DNA of 37,291 nt from Nitrospirota bacterium (GTDB lineage: Bacteria; Nitrospirota; UBA9217): contig DATIZR010000067.1 of the NCBI GenBank assembly GCA_035516965.1, forward strand, positions 1-37,291, given 5' to 3'. Positions 2,983 through 22,073 of this stretch are shown piece after piece. The notes beneath the pieces were generated by a model. The model searched no databases, was not told where the DNA came from, and saw nothing but the letters and a program-made list of their open reading frames with translations. The translations under genes and the position numbers were made by a program. How positions within the stretch are numbered: the stretch's first letter is position 1; each line of letters opens with the position of its first letter.

Positions 2983-3774
2983 TCATCCCCCCGTCAATCT
3001 CCCCGCAAACTCCTCCCCCAGCACCACCATCGATTCGATGTCCAGATATCTCGGTGCTGTCACGTCCAGCAGGAGCTTGCACTGCGCGGGAAAATCCTCT
3101 TCCGGAGCGGCGTCATCGAACAGGAGCAGCGCGGGGTAGTGGGGGAAGAAGCGGAACTCGAAGGCCGCGTCGTGACTGCCCTTGATCACGGCAGGCACTC
3201 CGCCCAGCTTCAGGCAGGCGGAATGAAGCGCCTTCACGTTTCCCGAAAAATGCTGAGCGATCACCTCTTCCACGTGTCCGGCCCAGGCCTTGTCCTTTGC
3301 ATGGGAGGCCGGCACGGAGCCGAAGGTTATCCATTCTCCACGCGGGGCGGGCGGATCGGGCATGCAGAGGTGGTTACAAATGAGGATCGAGACCCAGGGC
3401 CGCGGCTCGTGACCCGCTGCATCGGTCACCTTATCCCTGGTGACGCGATAGGCCTCATTGAGGAAGCTGATCTCGATCGTATCCGCATTGACCAGCCGCG
3501 CCCCGAACAGGTGCCCGGCGCGCTCGAAGTTGAGCCCTCGTACCTTCGGGCGAAGCGATTCCAGCGCCTGTTCGTACACTGTGCCGGGTGAATCCCGGCC
3601 GCCGGACCGCTCCTTCTCAAGGATCGCACTCGCACTCTCGCTCAGGTTCACGCATTGGCCGGCCTTCGCCTGATGCGTCGCAAGTTTCGCGGCAAAGCCG
3701 AAGCAGGTCGGCGTCCCGCATTTTCCACAGTTCGTTTTCGGAAGCAGCTTGTAGATTTCTACAGCGGTTTTCAT
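2983..3774 (-). CDS. Fe-S domain protein with DUF3786 domain
   Basis: The 263-residue cytoplasmic protein starts with a 4Fe-4S domain of the kind found in the corrinoid iron-sulfur protein and electron-transport subunit B family: NCGKCGTPTCFGFAAKL followed by a fourth cysteine in GQCVN (about residue 41). This gives spacing C-X2-C-X4-C-X16-C. The rest, from about residue 60 (YEQALESLRPKV) to the end, matches the DUF3786 domain, which is found in strict anaerobes and has no known biochemical role. Pairing of these two domains is recurrent in acetogens, methanogens and sulfur-metabolising bacteria. It is divergent from the hemerythrin gene, with about 120 bases between starts. No strong Shine-Dalgarno is visible before the ATG. 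A role in one-carbon or low-potential electron metabolism is only an inference. Confidence 0.85.
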   Translation of the reverse strand: MKTAVEIYKLLPKTNCGKCGTPTCFGFAAKLATHQAKAGQCVNLSESASAILEKERSGGRDSPGTVYEQALESLRPKVRGLNFERAGHLFGARLVNADTIEISFLNEAYRVTRDKVTDAAGHEPRPWVSILICNHLCMPDPPAPRGEWITFGSVPASHAKDKAWAGHVEEVIAQHFSGNVKALHSACLKLGGVPAVIKGSHDAAFEFRFFPHYPALLLFDDAAPEEDFPAQCKLLLDVTAPRYLDIESMVVLGEEFAGRLTGG

Positions 3775-3842
3775 GGTATAAGAGTAACTTTTTTAACGCG
3801 GGCTGTCAAACTGATTACGGAGGAAAGCGCCATTCTGTCATC

Positions 3843-3871
3843 TTGACACGGGCACCATCGATTGTTAATAT
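3843..3871 (+). promoter_or_regulatory. Sigma-70-type promoter of the hemerythrin gene
   Basis: TTGACA (3843-3848) and TAATAT (3866-3871) are separated by exactly 17 bases. Transcription would start near 3878, leaving a leader of about 20 bases that contains GGAGGG (3888-3893). Confidence 0.8.
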
Positions 3872-3898
3872 CCATGATGATACGTCGGGAGGGCTGTC

Positions 3899-4318
3899 AT
3901 GGAATGGAACAAAACGCTGGAAGTCGGCATCGATACGATCGACAGCCAGCACAGGGAGCTGTTCAGGAGGATCAACAGGCTGGTCCTTGCCATAAGAGAG
4001 CACCGCTGCAAATCGGAAATCGACGGTGTGCTCAAGTTTCTCGATGATTATGCCAGAGTGCACTTCGCCGATGAGGCAAAGCACATGCGCGAAACCGGGT
4101 ATCCAGGCTATGAGGAGCAGCTGCGGGAGCACCAGAAGTACCTTGCGGCCTTGAAGGAGCTGAAGGAGCAGGCCGAGCAGCCCCGGATCTCCGGAGCGTC
4201 CTATGACCTCTCGGCAACGACCAATCAGGTGGTCGTGGACTGGATCGTCGATCACATCATGAAGGTGGACATGAGGTTCGGCGAGTTCCTCCGAAACAAG
4301 AAGGCCCATGACGTATGA
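3899..4318 (+). CDS. Bacteriohemerythrin
   Basis: This 139-residue cytoplasmic protein has the four-helix hemerythrin signature. It shows W3, the IDSQH motif with His18, HFADE with His55 and Glu59, H78 in the third helix, and a C-terminal DHIMKVDMRF segment supplying His and Asp ligands of a non-heme di-iron centre that reversibly binds O2. Such stand-alone bacteriohemerythrins act as oxygen scavengers, carriers or sensors in microaerophiles and anaerobes. GGAGGG (3888-3893) sets the start and a near-consensus promoter lies directly upstream. The usual second His of the third-helix HxxxH pair is replaced (YL at 81-82), as in some other bacterial members. Confidence 0.92.
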   Translation: MEWNKTLEVGIDTIDSQHRELFRRINRLVLAIREHRCKSEIDGVLKFLDDYARVHFADEAKHMRETGYPGYEEQLREHQKYLAALKELKEQAEQPRISGASYDLSATTNQVVVDWIVDHIMKVDMRFGEFLRNKKAHDV

Positions 4319-4323
4319 TTCTT

Positions 4324-4358
4324 GTTCCGCCATTGGGAAAATCGTCGAGGAGCGGAAC
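4324..4358 (+). repeat. Inverted repeat after the hemerythrin gene
   Basis: GTTCCGC (4324-4330) and GCGGAAC (4352-4358) are perfect 7-bp complementary arms with a 21-base loop. There is no T-run, so a terminator role is uncertain. Confidence 0.35.
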
Positions 4359-4436
4359 CCCGCCCTGCCTTTCATCCTGCGCCAAAGGTATCAGACAAAC
4401 GAGTGACTTCCATAGCCTGCCCGTTCATCTCTCGTC

Positions 4437-4465
4437 TTGACACATGAACATCAGTTCACTATACT
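4437..4465 (+). promoter_or_regulatory. lexA promoter
   Basis: TTGACA (4437-4442) and TATACT (4460-4465) are spaced by 17 bases, a near-consensus sigma-70 promoter. The predicted start near 4472 leaves a leader of roughly 110 bases before the lexA ATG at 4581. Confidence 0.8.
4445..4458. promoter_or_regulatory. Putative LexA operator (SOS box) inside the lexA promoter
   Basis: TGAACATCAGTTCA is a palindrome with 5-bp arms and contains GAAC-N4-GTTC, the core of the Bacillus-type SOS box. It fills the spacer between the -35 and -10 hexamers of lexA, so LexA bound here would block RNA polymerase. This is the expected layout for autorepression. The assignment rests on motif and position. Confidence 0.65.
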
Positions 4466-4580
4466 GAAGCTGGTCCTGCTGCGGTTTCCCGTACGAAGCA
4501 ACAGGACTTATCGGGACGGGATTCGTATCATCGCACTTCCTGCCCGCACTCTTGCCCTGCATACCGCTTTGGGGGATCCC

Positions 4581-5192
4581 ATGCCTCAAAAGATAACGAA
4601 ACGCCAGCAGGACATCCTGGACTTCATCCGTACGACCATCGCAGGCCGGGGCATGCCGCCCACGATCAGGGAGATCGGGGCAAAGTTCGGCATCCGCTCA
4701 ACGAACGGCGTGGATGGCCACCTCTCGGCGCTGGAGGCCCGCGGGCTCATCAGGCGGGACCGGGGAAAGTCACGCGGCATTCTGCTGCGGCCCGCTGACC
4801 GGACGACCGTATCCATCCCCCTGCTGGGGAGGGTGGCTGCCGGACAGCCCGTGCTGTCGCCGGAGAACCGGGAGGGCGAGGTCGTCGTGGACCTCTCTCT
4901 CTATGCTCTCAGGAGCGCAAACAATATCTTCGCCCTCCGTGTGAAGGGCGAGAGCATGGTGAACGCCCACATCCTGGACAACGACCTGCTGATCGTCCGT
5001 GCGCAGAACGCCGCGCGGGACGGCGAGATCGTCGTGGCGCTGTGGGACGGGGAGGCGACGGTCAAGCGCTTCTTCGCTGAAAAGAACCGCGTCCGTCTGC
5101 AGCCGGAGAACATTGCCATGAGCCCTCTTTTCGTCGACCGGGGCGAGCTGCTCATTCTCGGGAAAGCGATCGGCGTCATCAGGCGGCTGTAG
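4581..5192 (+). CDS. lexA: LexA repressor, SOS response regulator
   Basis: The 203-residue length is typical of LexA. Residues 1-70 form the winged helix DNA-binding domain (KRQQDILDFI, PPTIREIG, then STNGVDGHLSALEARGLI). The latent protease domain follows, with the Ala87-Gly88 autocleavage bond in GRVAAGQP, the nucleophile Ser125 in KGESM and the general base Lys162 in ATVKRF. RecA filaments trigger self-cleavage, releasing SOS genes. The ATG at 4581 is chosen because it yields the canonical N-terminus; the frame is open further upstream but that part is the promoter and leader. The recognition helix resembles Bacillus-type LexA more than the E. coli protein, in line with the GAAC-N4-GTTC site in its own promoter. 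Confidence 0.95.
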   Translation: MPQKITKRQQDILDFIRTTIAGRGMPPTIREIGAKFGIRSTNGVDGHLSALEARGLIRRDRGKSRGILLRPADRTTVSIPLLGRVAAGQPVLSPENREGEVVVDLSLYALRSANNIFALRVKGESMVNAHILDNDLLIVRAQNAARDGEIVVALWDGEATVKRFFAEKNRVRLQPENIAMSPLFVDRGELLILGKAIGVIRRL

Positions 5193-5534: not shown

Positions 5535-8477
5535 GTGTTTTCCCCCTGGACGATACTTGCGGTCATACTCTCCTATCTGCTCCTGCTGTTCTGCGTCGCC
5601 TATGTTGCCGAGCGCAAGGACCAGCGGGGAAAGAGCCTTGTTTCCAATCCCTACGTTTATTCGCTTTCCCTGGCCGTCTACTGCACCTCCTGGACCTTCT
5701 ATGGCAGCGTGGGAAAGGCCGCGAGCACCGGCCTGAGCTTTCTCGCCATTTACGTGGGCCCGACGCTCATGGCGGCGCTCTGGTGGATCGTTCTCCGGAA
5801 GATCGTCTATCTCGCCCGGGAGAACCGCATCACGACCATCTCGGACTTCATCGCCTCGCGCTACGGCAAGTCCCTTTCCCTCTCGACGCTCGTCACGATC
5901 GTTGCCGTCATCGGGATCACGCCTTACCTCGGCCTCCAGCTCAAGGCCGTGATGACCACCATCGCGATGCTTTCCGGCCGGCCCGAGGAGAGCCAGCTCG
6001 CCGGCTGGTCTATCTCGCTGCTCATCGGCATCTTTGCGGTCATGTTCGGAGCGCGCCGGCTGGACGCATCGGAGCGGCACGGCGGGCTTGTCTTTGCCAT
6101 TGCCTTCGAGTCGGCCATCAAGCTGGTGGTCTTTCTGGCCGCGGGGATCTTCGTCACCTACGGCCTCTTCAACGGCTTTGGCGACATCTTCACGAGGATC
6201 AAGGGGAGCCCGTATGCTTCGCTCATGAAGATCGGCACCGGCTCCGAGGTCAGCTATCTCGAGTGGACCTCGCTCACGTTCCTCTCGATGATGGCCATCC
6301 TGTTCCTGCCGCGCCAGTTCCATGTCGCCGTCGTCGAGAACTATTCGGCGAACCACATCAGGAAGGCCATGTGGCTCTTCCCGCTCTACCTCTTCCTGAT
6401 CAACATCTTCGTGCTTCCCATCGCGTACGGCGGCCTGCTCATCAATGGCATTGCAACCCCCGCAGACTACTTCGTGCTGAGCATCCCCATGCACTACGGG
6501 CACAGGCTGCTCACGCTCGCCGTGTTCATCGGCGGGTTCTCGGCGGCAACGGCCATGATCATTGTCGAATCCGTCGCCCTCTCGACCATGGTGACGAACA
6601 GCTTCGTGGTGCCCACGCTCTGGAACCTGAGCGCGATCAGGAACTTTCACGCCGTGATCCTGAACACGAAGCGGCTTGTCATCATCGGCTGCGTCCTGCT
6701 CGGCTATCTGTTCGCGGTCTCGATCGGAGAATTCTACAGCCTTGTGGACATCGGGCTCAAGTCCTTCGAAGCCGTCACCATCTTCGCGCCGTCCATCCTG
6801 CTGGGGCTCTACTGGAAGGGCGGGAACCGGAAAGGGGCGTTCGCCGGGATCCTTGCCGGATTCGCGGTCTGGACCTATACCCTGCTCATCCCGGCGCTGA
6901 TGCGGGCCGGCATCATCGAGCCGGGCGGTCTCCTGGAAGCCATATTCAACTCGCAGCTCCTCAACCCGACGGCGCTCTTCGGACTCCGGGGGCTCGACCG
7001 GTGGAGCCACTCCCTGTTCTGGGGAATGCTCCTGAACGTCGGGCTCTATGTCGGGGTATCTCTCTTTACGCGTCAGTCCGACGCCGAGATGAGCCAGGCA
7101 ATTATCTTCGTGGACTCCTATTCTCCCCTGCAGTTCACCAACCCGCGGCCCTCGACGATCGAGGAGATCGAGGACATCCTCGGCCAATACCTCGGCAGCC
7201 GGGAGGCGCGCGAAACGATCGAAGGGTTCCTGAGGCGGCACCGTCTTGAACGGGACTCACTCTCGACGGAATGGCTGCTGATGCTGAGGCAGGAGGCCGA
7301 GCAGGCGCTGTCGGGGGCGCTCGGGCCGACCATCAGCGCGCTCGTGTTCCAGGAGCGGGCCGTCCTGACCCATGAGGATGCGATCCGCGTTTCGGACTCG
7401 GTGCGCCAGATCTCGCGGAGCCTCACCCTGTCCCGTGAAGAACTGGCCGAAGCGAACCGCCAGCTTGCCATGTTGAAGGAATTCAGCGAGAGCATCATCG
7501 AGAGCCTTCCCCTCGGCGTCGCGACCCTGGACGACTCGCTGCGCGTGAAATACTGGAACCACGGCATGGAGATGATCACCGGCGTGGAGAAGTCCGACGC
7601 GCTGAACAGCGCGGCCGAAGACATGCTGACGTGTCTCGAACCACGGCTCTTTACGCCCGAGCTTCAGGAAGGGGAGATCACCTGCCGGCGGAACTTCGCC
7701 CCCCCCATCGTCCTCAAGGGACAGATCAACAGGCTCACGGGCGCGCAGAAGGGCTACGTGCTGGTCCTCGAGGACATCACCGAGAAAAAGAAGATCGAGG
7801 AAGAATTATTTCGCGCAACGAAGCACGCGAGCGTTGGCAGGCTCGCGGCCGGCGTGGCGCACGAGATCGGCAACCCCCTGGCATCCATCTCGTCACTGGT
7901 GCAGGAGATGCAGGCCGAGGAGGTGACGCCTTTCGTCAAGGGGTCCCTGGGAACCGTCAACGAGCATGTGCACCGGATCGCTCGCATCGTGCGGAGCCTG
8001 GGCGATTTTGCGCGACTCTATCCGCGTCAGAAGGTTCCCACGAGCCTCAGGGAAATCCTGGAGAACACCCTGAATCTCGTTCGCTACGACCGGCACTTCA
8101 AGAAGATCGGGATCCACACCGACGTAAAGGACACGCCGCCTCTCAAGATCGACCCGGACCAGATCCAGCAGGTCTTCCTGAACCTGGTCCTGAATGCCCG
8201 TGACGCGATGCCCGAAGGTGGAAGCCTGGACATTGCGATCCACCAGGCGGACGGACACGTGGAGATGCTGTTCGCGGACACGGGACGCGGCATCGACCCC
8301 GGGGTGCGGGACAAGGTCTTCGATCCCTTCTTCAGCACGAAGGGGCCGACCAAGGGAACGGGCCTCGGACTGTCCATCTGCTACAGCATCATCAAAGACC
8401 ACGGCGGAACGATCGAGGTAGACTCGGAACAGGGCAGGGGTACGAAGTTCATCATCAGACTTCCGGTCGAAACCTGA
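5535..8477 (+). CDS. Sodium/solute symporter-like sensor histidine kinase (CbrA-like)
   Basis: The 980-residue protein begins with about 13 transmembrane segments of the sodium:solute symporter family (residues about 1-510; for example YCTSWTFYGSVGKAAS and the ISDFIASRYGKS region). A linker with coiled-coil character (about 600-650) leads to a PAS domain (about 650-750, SLPLGVATLDDSLRVKYWN). The kinase core has His776 in AGVAHEIGNPLAS, the N-box NLVLNARDAMPEGG, then DTGRGID, FDPFFSTK and GTGLGLSICYSI. The fusion is typical of CbrA-type kinases, which sense or transport a nutrient such as histidine and phosphorylate an NtrC-type regulator; that partner is the gene at 8676. Its start is a GTG directly after the TAA of the small membrane protein, with no Shine-Dalgarno of its own at good distance. 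Confidence 0.92.
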   Translation: MFSPWTILAVILSYLLLLFCVAYVAERKDQRGKSLVSNPYVYSLSLAVYCTSWTFYGSVGKAASTGLSFLAIYVGPTLMAALWWIVLRKIVYLARENRITTISDFIASRYGKSLSLSTLVTIVAVIGITPYLGLQLKAVMTTIAMLSGRPEESQLAGWSISLLIGIFAVMFGARRLDASERHGGLVFAIAFESAIKLVVFLAAGIFVTYGLFNGFGDIFTRIKGSPYASLMKIGTGSEVSYLEWTSLTFLSMMAILFLPRQFHVAVVENYSANHIRKAMWLFPLYLFLINIFVLPIAYGGLLINGIATPADYFVLSIPMHYGHRLLTLAVFIGGFSAATAMIIVESVALSTMVTNSFVVPTLWNLSAIRNFHAVILNTKRLVIIGCVLLGYLFAVSIGEFYSLVDIGLKSFEAVTIFAPSILLGLYWKGGNRKGAFAGILAGFAVWTYTLLIPALMRAGIIEPGGLLEAIFNSQLLNPTALFGLRGLDRWSHSLFWGMLLNVGLYVGVSLFTRQSDAEMSQAIIFVDSYSPLQFTNPRPSTIEEIEDILGQYLGSREARETIEGFLRRHRLERDSLSTEWLLMLRQEAEQALSGALGPTISALVFQERAVLTHEDAIRVSDSVRQISRSLTLSREELAEANRQLAMLKEFSESIIESLPLGVATLDDSLRVKYWNHGMEMITGVEKSDALNSAAEDMLTCLEPRLFTPELQEGEITCRRNFAPPIVLKGQINRLTGAQKGYVLVLEDITEKKKIEEELFRATKHASVGRLAAGVAHEIGNPLASISSLVQEMQAEEVTPFVKGSLGTVNEHVHRIARIVRSLGDFARLYPRQKVPTSLREILENTLNLVRYDRHFKKIGIHTDVKDTPPLKIDPDQIQQVFLNLVLNARDAMPEGGSLDIAIHQADGHVEMLFADTGRGIDPGVRDKVFDPFFSTKGPTKGTGLGLSICYSIIKDHGGTIEVDSEQGRGTKFIIRLPVET

Positions 8478-19914: not shown

Positions 19915-20775
19915 ATGATTCTTTTTCAAAATGTTACCATCATCGGCGTCGGCCTGATCGGCGGATCGCTCGCGAAGGCTTTGAAGGCCAAGGGCCTTGC
20001 CGGCACCATTGCGGGCACGGGCCGGAGGAGGGAATCCCTCGAAGAGGCGCTCAGGCTCGGAGTGATCGACCGGATCGGGCAGGGAAAGGCATATGGCGTC
20101 GAGGATGCGGACCTCGTTGTCCTCGCGTCACCCGTCGGCACCTTCGAGAGGATCATGCGGGAGATCGCGCCGCATCTGAAGAAGGGCTGCATCATAACCG
20201 ACGTGGGCAGTGTTAAGGGAAAACTGATCGCGGTCGTGGAAGGGGCTCTTCCCGCAGGACGGCACTATGTCCCGGCCCATCCGATAGCGGGTCGTGAGAA
20301 ATCAGGCGTCGCCGAGGCCTCGGAAAACCTGTTCCGGGACCGCCGCTGCATCCTGACACCGACCGAACGAACGGACGACAGGGCGCTTGAAACCGTGCGC
20401 GACATGTGGAGCCTGACGGGAGCGATCGTGAGCGTCATGGACGCGGACCTGCATGACAGGGTCTTTGCCGCGGTCAGCCATCTTCCTCATGTGGCCGCGT
20501 TCGCCATGATGTGTGCCGTGGCGGAGCTGAACACCGGGTCCGAAGATTACCTCGCATATTCCGGCGCGGGGTTCCGCGACTTCACCCGGATCGCGGCAAG
20601 CTCCCCGGAAATGTGGAAGGATATCTGCCTCATGAACCGCGATAACCTCATACCGATGATCGACCGCTACCTGTTCTCGCTGAACCGGTTCAAGCACGAG
20701 ATCATCGCCGGGGACGAAAAGCGTCTCGAAAAACACCTCCAGCTGTCGAGCGACGAGCGCCGGGGTATGGAATAA
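19915..20775 (+). CDS. tyrA: Prephenate dehydrogenase
   Basis: The 286-residue protein oxidises prephenate to 4-hydroxyphenylpyruvate with NAD(P)+, the tyrosine branch. The N-terminal Rossmann fold shows VTIIGVGLIGGSLAKALK. DLVVLASPVG and DVGSVKG follow, then the substrate-site motif HPIAGREKSGV and, in the helical C-terminal domain, SHLPHVAAFAM and YSGAGFRDFTRIAASSP. There is no C-terminal ACT domain, so feedback control must lie elsewhere. No Shine-Dalgarno precedes the ATG at 19915; another ATG at 19930 in the same frame is possible. Its TAA overlaps the aroA ATG by one base, indicating translational coupling. Confidence 0.94.
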   Translation: MILFQNVTIIGVGLIGGSLAKALKAKGLAGTIAGTGRRRESLEEALRLGVIDRIGQGKAYGVEDADLVVLASPVGTFERIMREIAPHLKKGCIITDVGSVKGKLIAVVEGALPAGRHYVPAHPIAGREKSGVAEASENLFRDRRCILTPTERTDDRALETVRDMWSLTGAIVSVMDADLHDRVFAAVSHLPHVAAFAMMCAVAELNTGSEDYLAYSGAGFRDFTRIAASSPEMWKDICLMNRDNLIPMIDRYLFSLNRFKHEIIAGDEKRLEKHLQLSSDERRGME

Positions 20776-22073
20776 TGTCGGACCTGGTCATCAGGCCGTC
20801 GCGCGGCGTCAGGGGCGATATCCTCCTGCCGGGAGACAAATCCATTTCGCACCGGTCGGTCCTGTTCTCTGCCATTGCCGAGGGCGATACCGCGATCAAC
20901 GGGTTTCTGGCGGGGGAAGATACGACCAATACGGTAAAAACTGTCCAGGCGCTGGGCATCACGGTAGACGGCGTGGGGAACAGCCGCATGGTCGTCCGCG
21001 GCAACGGTCTGGATGGCCTGCGGGAGCCGTCGGGCGTGCTTGACCTCGGAAACTCCGGCACGGGCATGCGGCTGCTTGCCGGCCTGCTCGCCGGCCAGAA
21101 CTTCTTCTCCATCCTTACGGGTGACGAGTACCTCCGCAAGCGGCCGATGGGCAGGATCGTGGAGCCCCTCCGGTTGATGGGAGCCATGATCGACGGCCGG
21201 TCCGACGGGAAGCTTGCCCCCCTTGCGATCCGGGGCGGGGGCAGGAAGACGAGGGCGATCGAGTACACGAGCCCGGTGGCGAGCGCGCAGGTGAAGTCGG
21301 CGGTGCTCCTCGCGGGCCTTTTCGCGGACGGCGAGACAACGGTGAACGAACCGTCGAAATCGAGAGACCACACCGAACGCATGTTCCGGTTCTTCGGCGT
21401 CGATGTGGCGGAGGCGGGGACGAGGGTCACGATCAGGGGGCGGCAAAGGCTCCGGGCGAAGGGAACGATCGAGGTGCCTTCCGATATTTCATCGGCCGCG
21501 TTCTTCCTCGTGGCCGCGGGCATCGTGCCCGGCTCCGATCTTCTCGTCAGGAACGTAGGCGTGAACCCGACGCGGACCGGGATCGTCGATGTGCTTCAGG
21601 CGATGGGAGCCGACATCACCCTGGAGAACCGGCGTGAACAGGCCGGCGAACCCGTGGCGGACATCAGGGCGCGGTACAGCAAGCTCCATGCCGTCGAGTT
21701 GTCGGGAGACGTCATCCCGAGGGCGATCGACGAGATACCCGTTCTGGCCGTTGCCGCCGCCTATGCGGAGGGAACGACGGTTATCAGGGACGCTGCCGAG
21801 CTCCGCCTCAAGGAATCGGACCGGATCGCGACCATCGCCGGGGAGCTCAGGAAGATGGGCGCAGAGGTCCGGGAACTTCCCGATGGAATGGAGATCACCG
21901 GGCGCGAACGGCTTGACGGTGCGCACTGCGAGAGCCACGGAGACCACCGGATAGCCATGTCCATGGCTGTTGCCGGACTTGCTGCGATGAATAACACGGT
22001 GATCCGCGACGCGGCCTGGATCGACACGTCCTTTCCCGGCTTCGAACGGCTGCTGCATCAGGCTGCGTACTGA
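20775..22073 (+). CDS. aroA: 3-phosphoshikimate 1-carboxyvinyltransferase (EPSP synthase)
   Basis: A 432-residue enzyme of the shikimate pathway, joining shikimate-3-phosphate and phosphoenolpyruvate. Landmarks are LPGDKSISHRSVLFSA, LDLGNSGTGMRLLAGLLAG, LRKRPMGRIVEPLRLMGA, SAQVKSAVLLAGL, KSRDHTERMF, DISSAAFFLVA and DEIPVLAVAAAYAEG followed by LRLKESDRI. The RPM-R-x-x-PL motif and overall pattern look closer to the class II (CP4-like) enzymes than to E. coli AroA, which is an impression rather than a measured result. The ATG overlaps the tyrA stop (TAATG). Confidence 0.95.
   Translation: MSDLVIRPSRGVRGDILLPGDKSISHRSVLFSAIAEGDTAINGFLAGEDTTNTVKTVQALGITVDGVGNSRMVVRGNGLDGLREPSGVLDLGNSGTGMRLLAGLLAGQNFFSILTGDEYLRKRPMGRIVEPLRLMGAMIDGRSDGKLAPLAIRGGGRKTRAIEYTSPVASAQVKSAVLLAGLFADGETTVNEPSKSRDHTERMFRFFGVDVAEAGTRVTIRGRQRLRAKGTIEVPSDISSAAFFLVAAGIVPGSDLLVRNVGVNPTRTGIVDVLQAMGADITLENRREQAGEPVADIRARYSKLHAVELSGDVIPRAIDEIPVLAVAAAYAEGTTVIRDAAELRLKESDRIATIAGELRKMGAEVRELPDGMEITGRERLDGAHCESHGDHRIAMSMAVAGLAAMNNTVIRDAAWIDTSFPGFERLLHQAAY

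Follow-up and report, generated by a model that had tools for sequence, protein, structure and literature searches.

We are highly confident that positions 4437-4465 of the window (the whole stretch of DNA analysed, 37,291 nucleotides from a Nitrospirota bacterium) form the promoter of lexA with a LexA autoregulatory SOS operator set in its 17-bp spacer, an element that is real and probably functional. The initial annotation, which had placed a GAAC-N4-GTTC operator in the lexA promoter of a Gram-negative host, wholly between the -35 and -10 hexamers in a position suited to autorepression, holds in all these respects: its positions are exact to the base, TGAACATCAGTTCA (exact core at 4446-4457) lies entirely inside the 17-bp spacer (4443-4459) between TTGACA and TATACT, the next gene encodes canonical LexA, and the host belongs to the Nitrospirota. 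The operator is further backed by the same composite of hexamers and operator, which recurs at the lexA operons of relatives; a version displaced by one base precedes another SOS gene on contig C50 of this genome. This kind of control element is an ordinary and known one; what is new is the phylum, the flanks of the operator, a small regulon without recA, a second LexA-like gene and integrase targets.

The lexA promoter and its product

Table 1. Features of the lexA locus, in window coordinates.
Feature	Position	Strand	Basis
-35 hexamer TTGACA, lexA promoter	4437..4442	+	sequence, promoter scan
LexA operator TGAACATCAGTTCA	4445..4458	.	perfect 5+5 palindrome around 4 bases, within 17-bp spacer; sequence, composite conservation, shuffles, Markov null
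-10 hexamer TATACT, lexA promoter	4460..4465	+	sequence, promoter scan
candidate ribosome-binding site GGGGGA	4571..4576	+	by eye
lexA, 203 aa	4581..5192	+	winged-helix DNA-binding domain and S24 peptidase; profile matches, alignment to solved LexA

A promoter scan of 4319-4600 returned a single sigma-70-like promoter, that of lexA (Table 1), which matches 11 of 12 consensus bases, with 0.2 such promoters expected in shuffles. A longer open reading frame with a TTG start at 4437 was considered as the lexA gene and rejected, since its start falls inside the -35 hexamer. The product of the gene in Table 1 is canonical LexA: it matches TIGR00498 with 214.3 bits (cut-off 110.95), LexA_DNA_bind (PF01726) with 84.5 bits (cut-off 23.7) and Peptidase_S24 (PF00717) with 102.3 bits, and aligned with solved LexA it has the cleavage pair Ala87-Gly88 and the catalytic dyad Ser125/Lys162.

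From established LexA biology we infer how binding, repression, cleavage and induction would proceed at this locus. A LexA dimer on TGAACATCAGTTCA would cover the spacer, exclude RNA polymerase and hold lexA low; once DNA is damaged, LexA would cleave itself at Ala87-Gly88 under the action of RecA filaments, which would leave the operator free and allow lexA to be made anew, a case of autoregulation. One operator would in this way serve a small SOS regulon, consisting in this genome of lexA, a UmuD-like gene and the SRAP gene divergent from it, and taking in across the family the dinB-lexA operon, the second LexA-like gene and integron integrases as well.

The window contains a second exact GAAC-N4-GTTC at 21375-21386, inside the open reading frame 20775-22073; it has no T/A flanks, is not part of a composite and is probably a chance occurrence.

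Conservation and origin of the composite promoter

In a search of the genome for the motif, proposed as a check, the bare palindrome is not enriched; the -35/operator/-10 composite is decisive. In this genome GAAC-N4-GTTC has 75 occurrences and its reversed control 73. The longer TGAAC-N4-GTTCA occurs 7 times here (reversed 1) and 75 times in the 14 genomes of the family (reversed 10), and with 1 mismatch at 108 places in this genome (listed in part) against 26 for the reversed control. The reversed control misleads, however, as both TGAAC and GTTCA are frequent in this DNA: an order-5 Markov null, built from 410 kb of family DNA, predicts 72-93 exact sites for the 75 observed. Counting the bare palindrome was dropped as uninformative; what gives the motif its significance is the promoter composite, together with the conservation of that composite.

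The composite was defined as TTGACA-NN-TGAAC-N4-GTTCA-N-TATAAT with up to 3 mismatches allowed, and 15 sites were found in 10 of the 14 family genomes, the reversed control giving 0 and three Markov nulls, each about 45 Mb long, giving 0, 0 and 0. It could be argued that a chance palindrome fell inside a strong promoter, since its half-sites are common words and its genome-wide count equals the null, but this is hardly credible when dinucleotide shuffling of the 262-bp intergenic stretch, repeated 20,000 times, gives the 14-mer in only 5 cases (GAAC-N4-GTTC in 95), when the nulls hold no composite, and when all 15 composites stand at SOS genes, integrase genes or integrase tails. That the composite is conserved between genera largely refutes the chance reading.

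Eight of the 15 composites are followed by lexA or a dinB-lexA operon, five by integron integrase genes and two by integrase C-terminal tails. Behind the operon sites the order is a small ORF (6 of 8), then dinB, then lexA, although for G004 and G003, whose contigs end before lexA, the linkage to lexA is presumed. In several genomes the gene nearest to the dinB-lexA SOS promoter is this small ORF, which is conserved and about 80 aa long and gives a weak, below-cut-off match to DUF6504 (loci L250, L255, L256, L257, L260, L261 and L297). The lexA genes of relatives have no site directly upstream because lexA comes after dinB in the operon.

The dinB-lexA promoter of G001, a genome of the same genus, reads TTGACACATGAACAAATGTTCACTATAAT and matches the promoter of the window at 25 of 28 bases; four central bases differ and the ten palindrome bases are intact. 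A large gene at 5535-8477, downstream of lexA in the window, lies behind lexA in G001 too. Given this promoter match and the shared downstream gene, the window looks like the operon promoter with dinB lost, and most likely it is the old dinB-lexA operon promoter, kept beside lexA after the loss of dinB; no dinB remnants were found between promoter and lexA. The same facts, i.e., the missing dinB, the likeness to the G001 promoter and the changed central bases, would also suit an operator that was merely inherited from the operon and whose regulation has been lost. This is extremely improbable, as the palindrome bases were preserved although the central ones changed, and as the other site of this genome, on C50, is intact too.

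Upstream of the retained promoter (2983-4318) lie DUF3786 and hemerythrin genes, whose orthologues in G007:C101 are 66% and 64% identical and adjoin an integrase with an SOS promoter; that contig also carries the dinB-lexA site, at a distance of about 16 kb from this integrase promoter. Such a layout makes it plausible that a larger deletion or rearrangement joined the DUF3786-hemerythrin and lexA regions.

Outside the family the composite was found at 8 sites, one of them before lexA (G118) and one before a dinB operon (G033, GTAC variant), while the other six look like noise, two of them being at TetR-like genes (by eye). The variant operators TGTACAAATGTACA (L297, G033) and TGAACAAATGTACA (L257, G003) precede small ORF-dinB genes, and they look like steps from the GAAC to the GTAC half-site, the latter being cyanobacteria-like.

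A second LexA-like gene and the extent of the regulon

With the operator moved by one base (TTGACA-N-TGAAC-N4-GTTCA-NN-TATAAT), 33 sites were found in 25 of 148 Nitrospirota genomes and 17 of 72 genera, against 1 site for the reversed control and 0, 0 and 0 in the three Markov nulls. Loci were fetched for 30 of the 33 sites: 20 precede a LexA/UmuD-like gene (two of these, in G075, are short identical contig ends), 1 precedes umuC, and 9 are other or unassignable. The 20 LexA/UmuD-like loci span 8 Nitrospirota families, and umuC lies within 1.5 kb downstream in 7 of them. A site with an 18-bp spacer was observed before the gene of this second protein, LexA2, in G007, G010 and G012, and is presumably present in G009, where the search for the exact palindrome gives a site and that for the shifted composite does not.

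LexA2 of G004 scores above the cut-offs of both the NCBIfam UmuD model (127.8 bits) and the LexA model (126.3 bits); its LexA_DNA_bind match (20.0 bits) is under the cut-off of 23.7, and its LexA-like head contains an RSKNAV helix, so that the UmuDAb-type architecture, a UmuD-type C-terminal part with a DNA-binding head, is found in it. In a tree of 43 of the 48 aligned rows, drawn from four sets of loci and with weak deeper forks and flagged long branches, LexA2 forms a separate deep clade (support 100/100), while LexA1 forms its own clade beside the Bacilli sampled. Import of a Bacillus lexA gains no support from this tree, as the LexA of the window does not nest among the sampled Bacilli. 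Canonical LexA occurs beside LexA2 in G004, G007, G009, G010, G011, G013 and partly G008.

In this genome (G000) a perfect shifted composite stands at C50:27361-27389 before a UmuD-like gene, which shares its operator (L126:7370-7383, in locus L126:6838-8147 of G000:C50) with a divergent SRAP gene starting 96 bp away on the other side. The UmuD-like protein has no DNA-binding head, and the gene derives from LexA2 through loss of that head.

The operator in the window might be real and yet be bound by another repressor, of the LexA2/UmuD type or a phage-type S24 protein, rather than by the adjacent LexA. The second LexA-like family does carry the same operator in its own promoter, and G002 and G012, where LexA2 was found and LexA1 was not, keep their sites. 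On the other hand, the only other LexA-search match of this genome (C50) is without a DNA-binding head, as in G003, and no LexA2 was found in G001; in these three genomes (G000, G001 and G003) LexA1 is present, no intact LexA2 was found, and all of them keep the site. We therefore consider another repressor improbable, if less so than chance or a relic, and retain LexA itself as the reader of the operator. The composite is absent from G006, in which searches gave no LexA and no Y-family polymerase. G005 (assembly 74% complete) has sites without any LexA with an intact DNA-binding head being found, and fits only through its incompleteness. All genomes are draft assemblies, in which gene absence is soft evidence.

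The simplest reading is that both paralogues appear to use one operator. More broadly, we moderately favour a joint reading in which two deeply diverged LexA paralogues of the Nitrospirota share a spacer-set TGAAC-N4-GTTCA, the same operator also controls integron integrases, and the loss of one paralogue or its head leaves the regulon readable by the other; such sharing would run contrary to the duplication-divergence model, and SOS-controlled integrons would have been independently invented outside the E. coli-type motif.

The prediction of sites at recA and uvrA was not borne out. The B. subtilis regulon includes both genes; unlike there, no composite was found before recA at 8 examined of 9 family loci or at the 12 uvrA loci examined, and recA and uvrA are not supported as further targets. 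The 11.5 kb around recA of this genome (pgpA-cinA-thpR-recA-pilT-recX, names by eye) contain no site with up to 1 mismatch. Sites with 1-2 mismatches occur at 2 of 8 recA loci, in each case over 300 bp upstream (control 1 of 8), and sites with 2 mismatches at 3 of 12 uvrA loci (control 0), in an upstream-site check that left out the integrase locus L334 and both recA and the partial uvrA of G006, and in which several loci end near a contig edge. Regarding translesion polymerases, the 400 bp upstream of dinB (C93) and of umuC (C50) in this genome are free of sites at up to 1 mismatch. Among all 23 Y-family polymerase loci, a set that takes in imuB as far as PF00817 reaches, an exact site lies within 400 bp in 4, and one with up to 2 mismatches in 9 (control 3). 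As far as tested, the regulon is small and without recA.

Comparison with known systems and integron integrases

GAAC-N4-GTTC is known as the SOS box of Gram-positives (Firmicute and actinobacterial), among them Bacillus subtilis and Mycobacterium tuberculosis (PMC3323433), and the operator of the window agrees with it in core half-sites, spacing and its nature as a palindromic LexA operator in a promoter. The description of the box as Bacillus-like is therefore right for the core, but not for the flanks, the recognition helix and the phylogeny of LexA, all of which differ from the sampled Bacilli. T and A flank the core here and in 13 of 13 promoter composites of the family, in part because the search pattern prescribed these bases, whereas the Bacillus consensus has C/G flanks (CGAAC...GTTCG); among 80 fetched lexA loci, a set dominated by Bacilli, the 14 with an exact core within 250 bp of lexA have the flanks A/G (13) or C/G (1), read on the lexA strand. 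The recognition helix is RSTNGVDGHL in this LexA, compared with ASSSTVHGHL in Bacillus, and across the family LexA1 it is RSTNGV(D/E)(G/K)HL, or ASTNGVERHL in G009. LexA motifs vary strongly between phyla and are a model for the co-evolution of regulator and site (PMC8565304), and a GAAC core shared by LexA proteins with different recognition helices would serve as a natural experiment on the determinants of LexA specificity. Among the matches listed in the open-licence PMC literature, none describes a LexA site in Nitrospirota, including Nitrospira and Leptospirillum.

The regulons of Balneolaeota and Bacteroidetes (PMC7739468, PMC8565304) resemble the present one in a self-regulated repressor and in translesion polymerase and SRAP-type peptidase targets, and differ in that their motifs are unrelated to GAAC-N4-GTTC and that the Balneolaeota regulon includes recA. 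The model published in PMC8565304 is that lexA duplication leads to divergence of motifs, while the two paralogues here seem to share one, which if true would be an exception to that model. LexA2 is like UmuDAb of Acinetobacter (PMC11332147) in joining a UmuD-like protein with an N-terminal DNA-binding part, the action on polymerase genes being shown there and presumed here; it is unlike UmuDAb in its site, a simple TGAAC-N4-GTTCA palindrome, and in sitting beside canonical LexA in several family genomes. A host without LexA, typical of UmuDAb, is thus not what the LexA2 genomes present.

Ten integrase loci above the TIGR02249 cut-off were found in the family and none in this genome. The composite stands at 4 of the 10 (G010:C15, G012:C81, G007:C101 and G003:C128) and at one broken copy (G007:C53), the SOS-promoter integrase loci being L252 (G012), L254 (G010), L262 (G003), and L263 and L253 (G007); the remaining 6 of 10 are without it, and the G001 contig among the loci offers only 177 bp upstream. 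The integrase frame opens directly after the composite promoter and encodes an N-terminal extension, some 165 aa long, ahead of the integrase match; it is uninterrupted in G012, G010 and G003, while both G007 copies are broken (in G007:C101 by a frame change inside the gene). At L264 (G007:C2) and L251 (G002:C66) the composite abuts only the final integrase codons, the tails being recognised by BLAST in one case and by eye in the other; each seems to be an integrase gene with an internal deletion, and the two belong to different genera.

When 15 LexA motifs were looked for in 1,103 regions upstream of intI (PMC3108266), the beta/gamma-proteobacterial (E. coli-type) motif was the only one found. 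The integrases described here resemble the LexA-controlled ones of that source in having a LexA operator within the integrase promoter, with the GAAC motif in its place, and may be the first under a LexA box not of the E. coli type. If they are LexA-controlled, SOS-triggered cassette shuffling would have arisen more than once, with different LexA motifs.

An attC pattern finder returned 0 in four stretches beside SOS-promoter integrases and 0 in shuffled DNA, and so had no power, and a repeat search of two of these stretches gave one 221-nt tandem repeat and no attC family. When three G010 intergenic stretches divergent from intI were folded, two hairpins beat their shuffles (5 and 1 of 200) and one did not, which makes the two candidate attC-like elements. 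The open reading frames divergent from the integrase in this region (L376:5184-9550, G010:C15) include, besides these two hairpins, a toxin-antitoxin-like pair (by eye), and the region is possibly a small cassette array.
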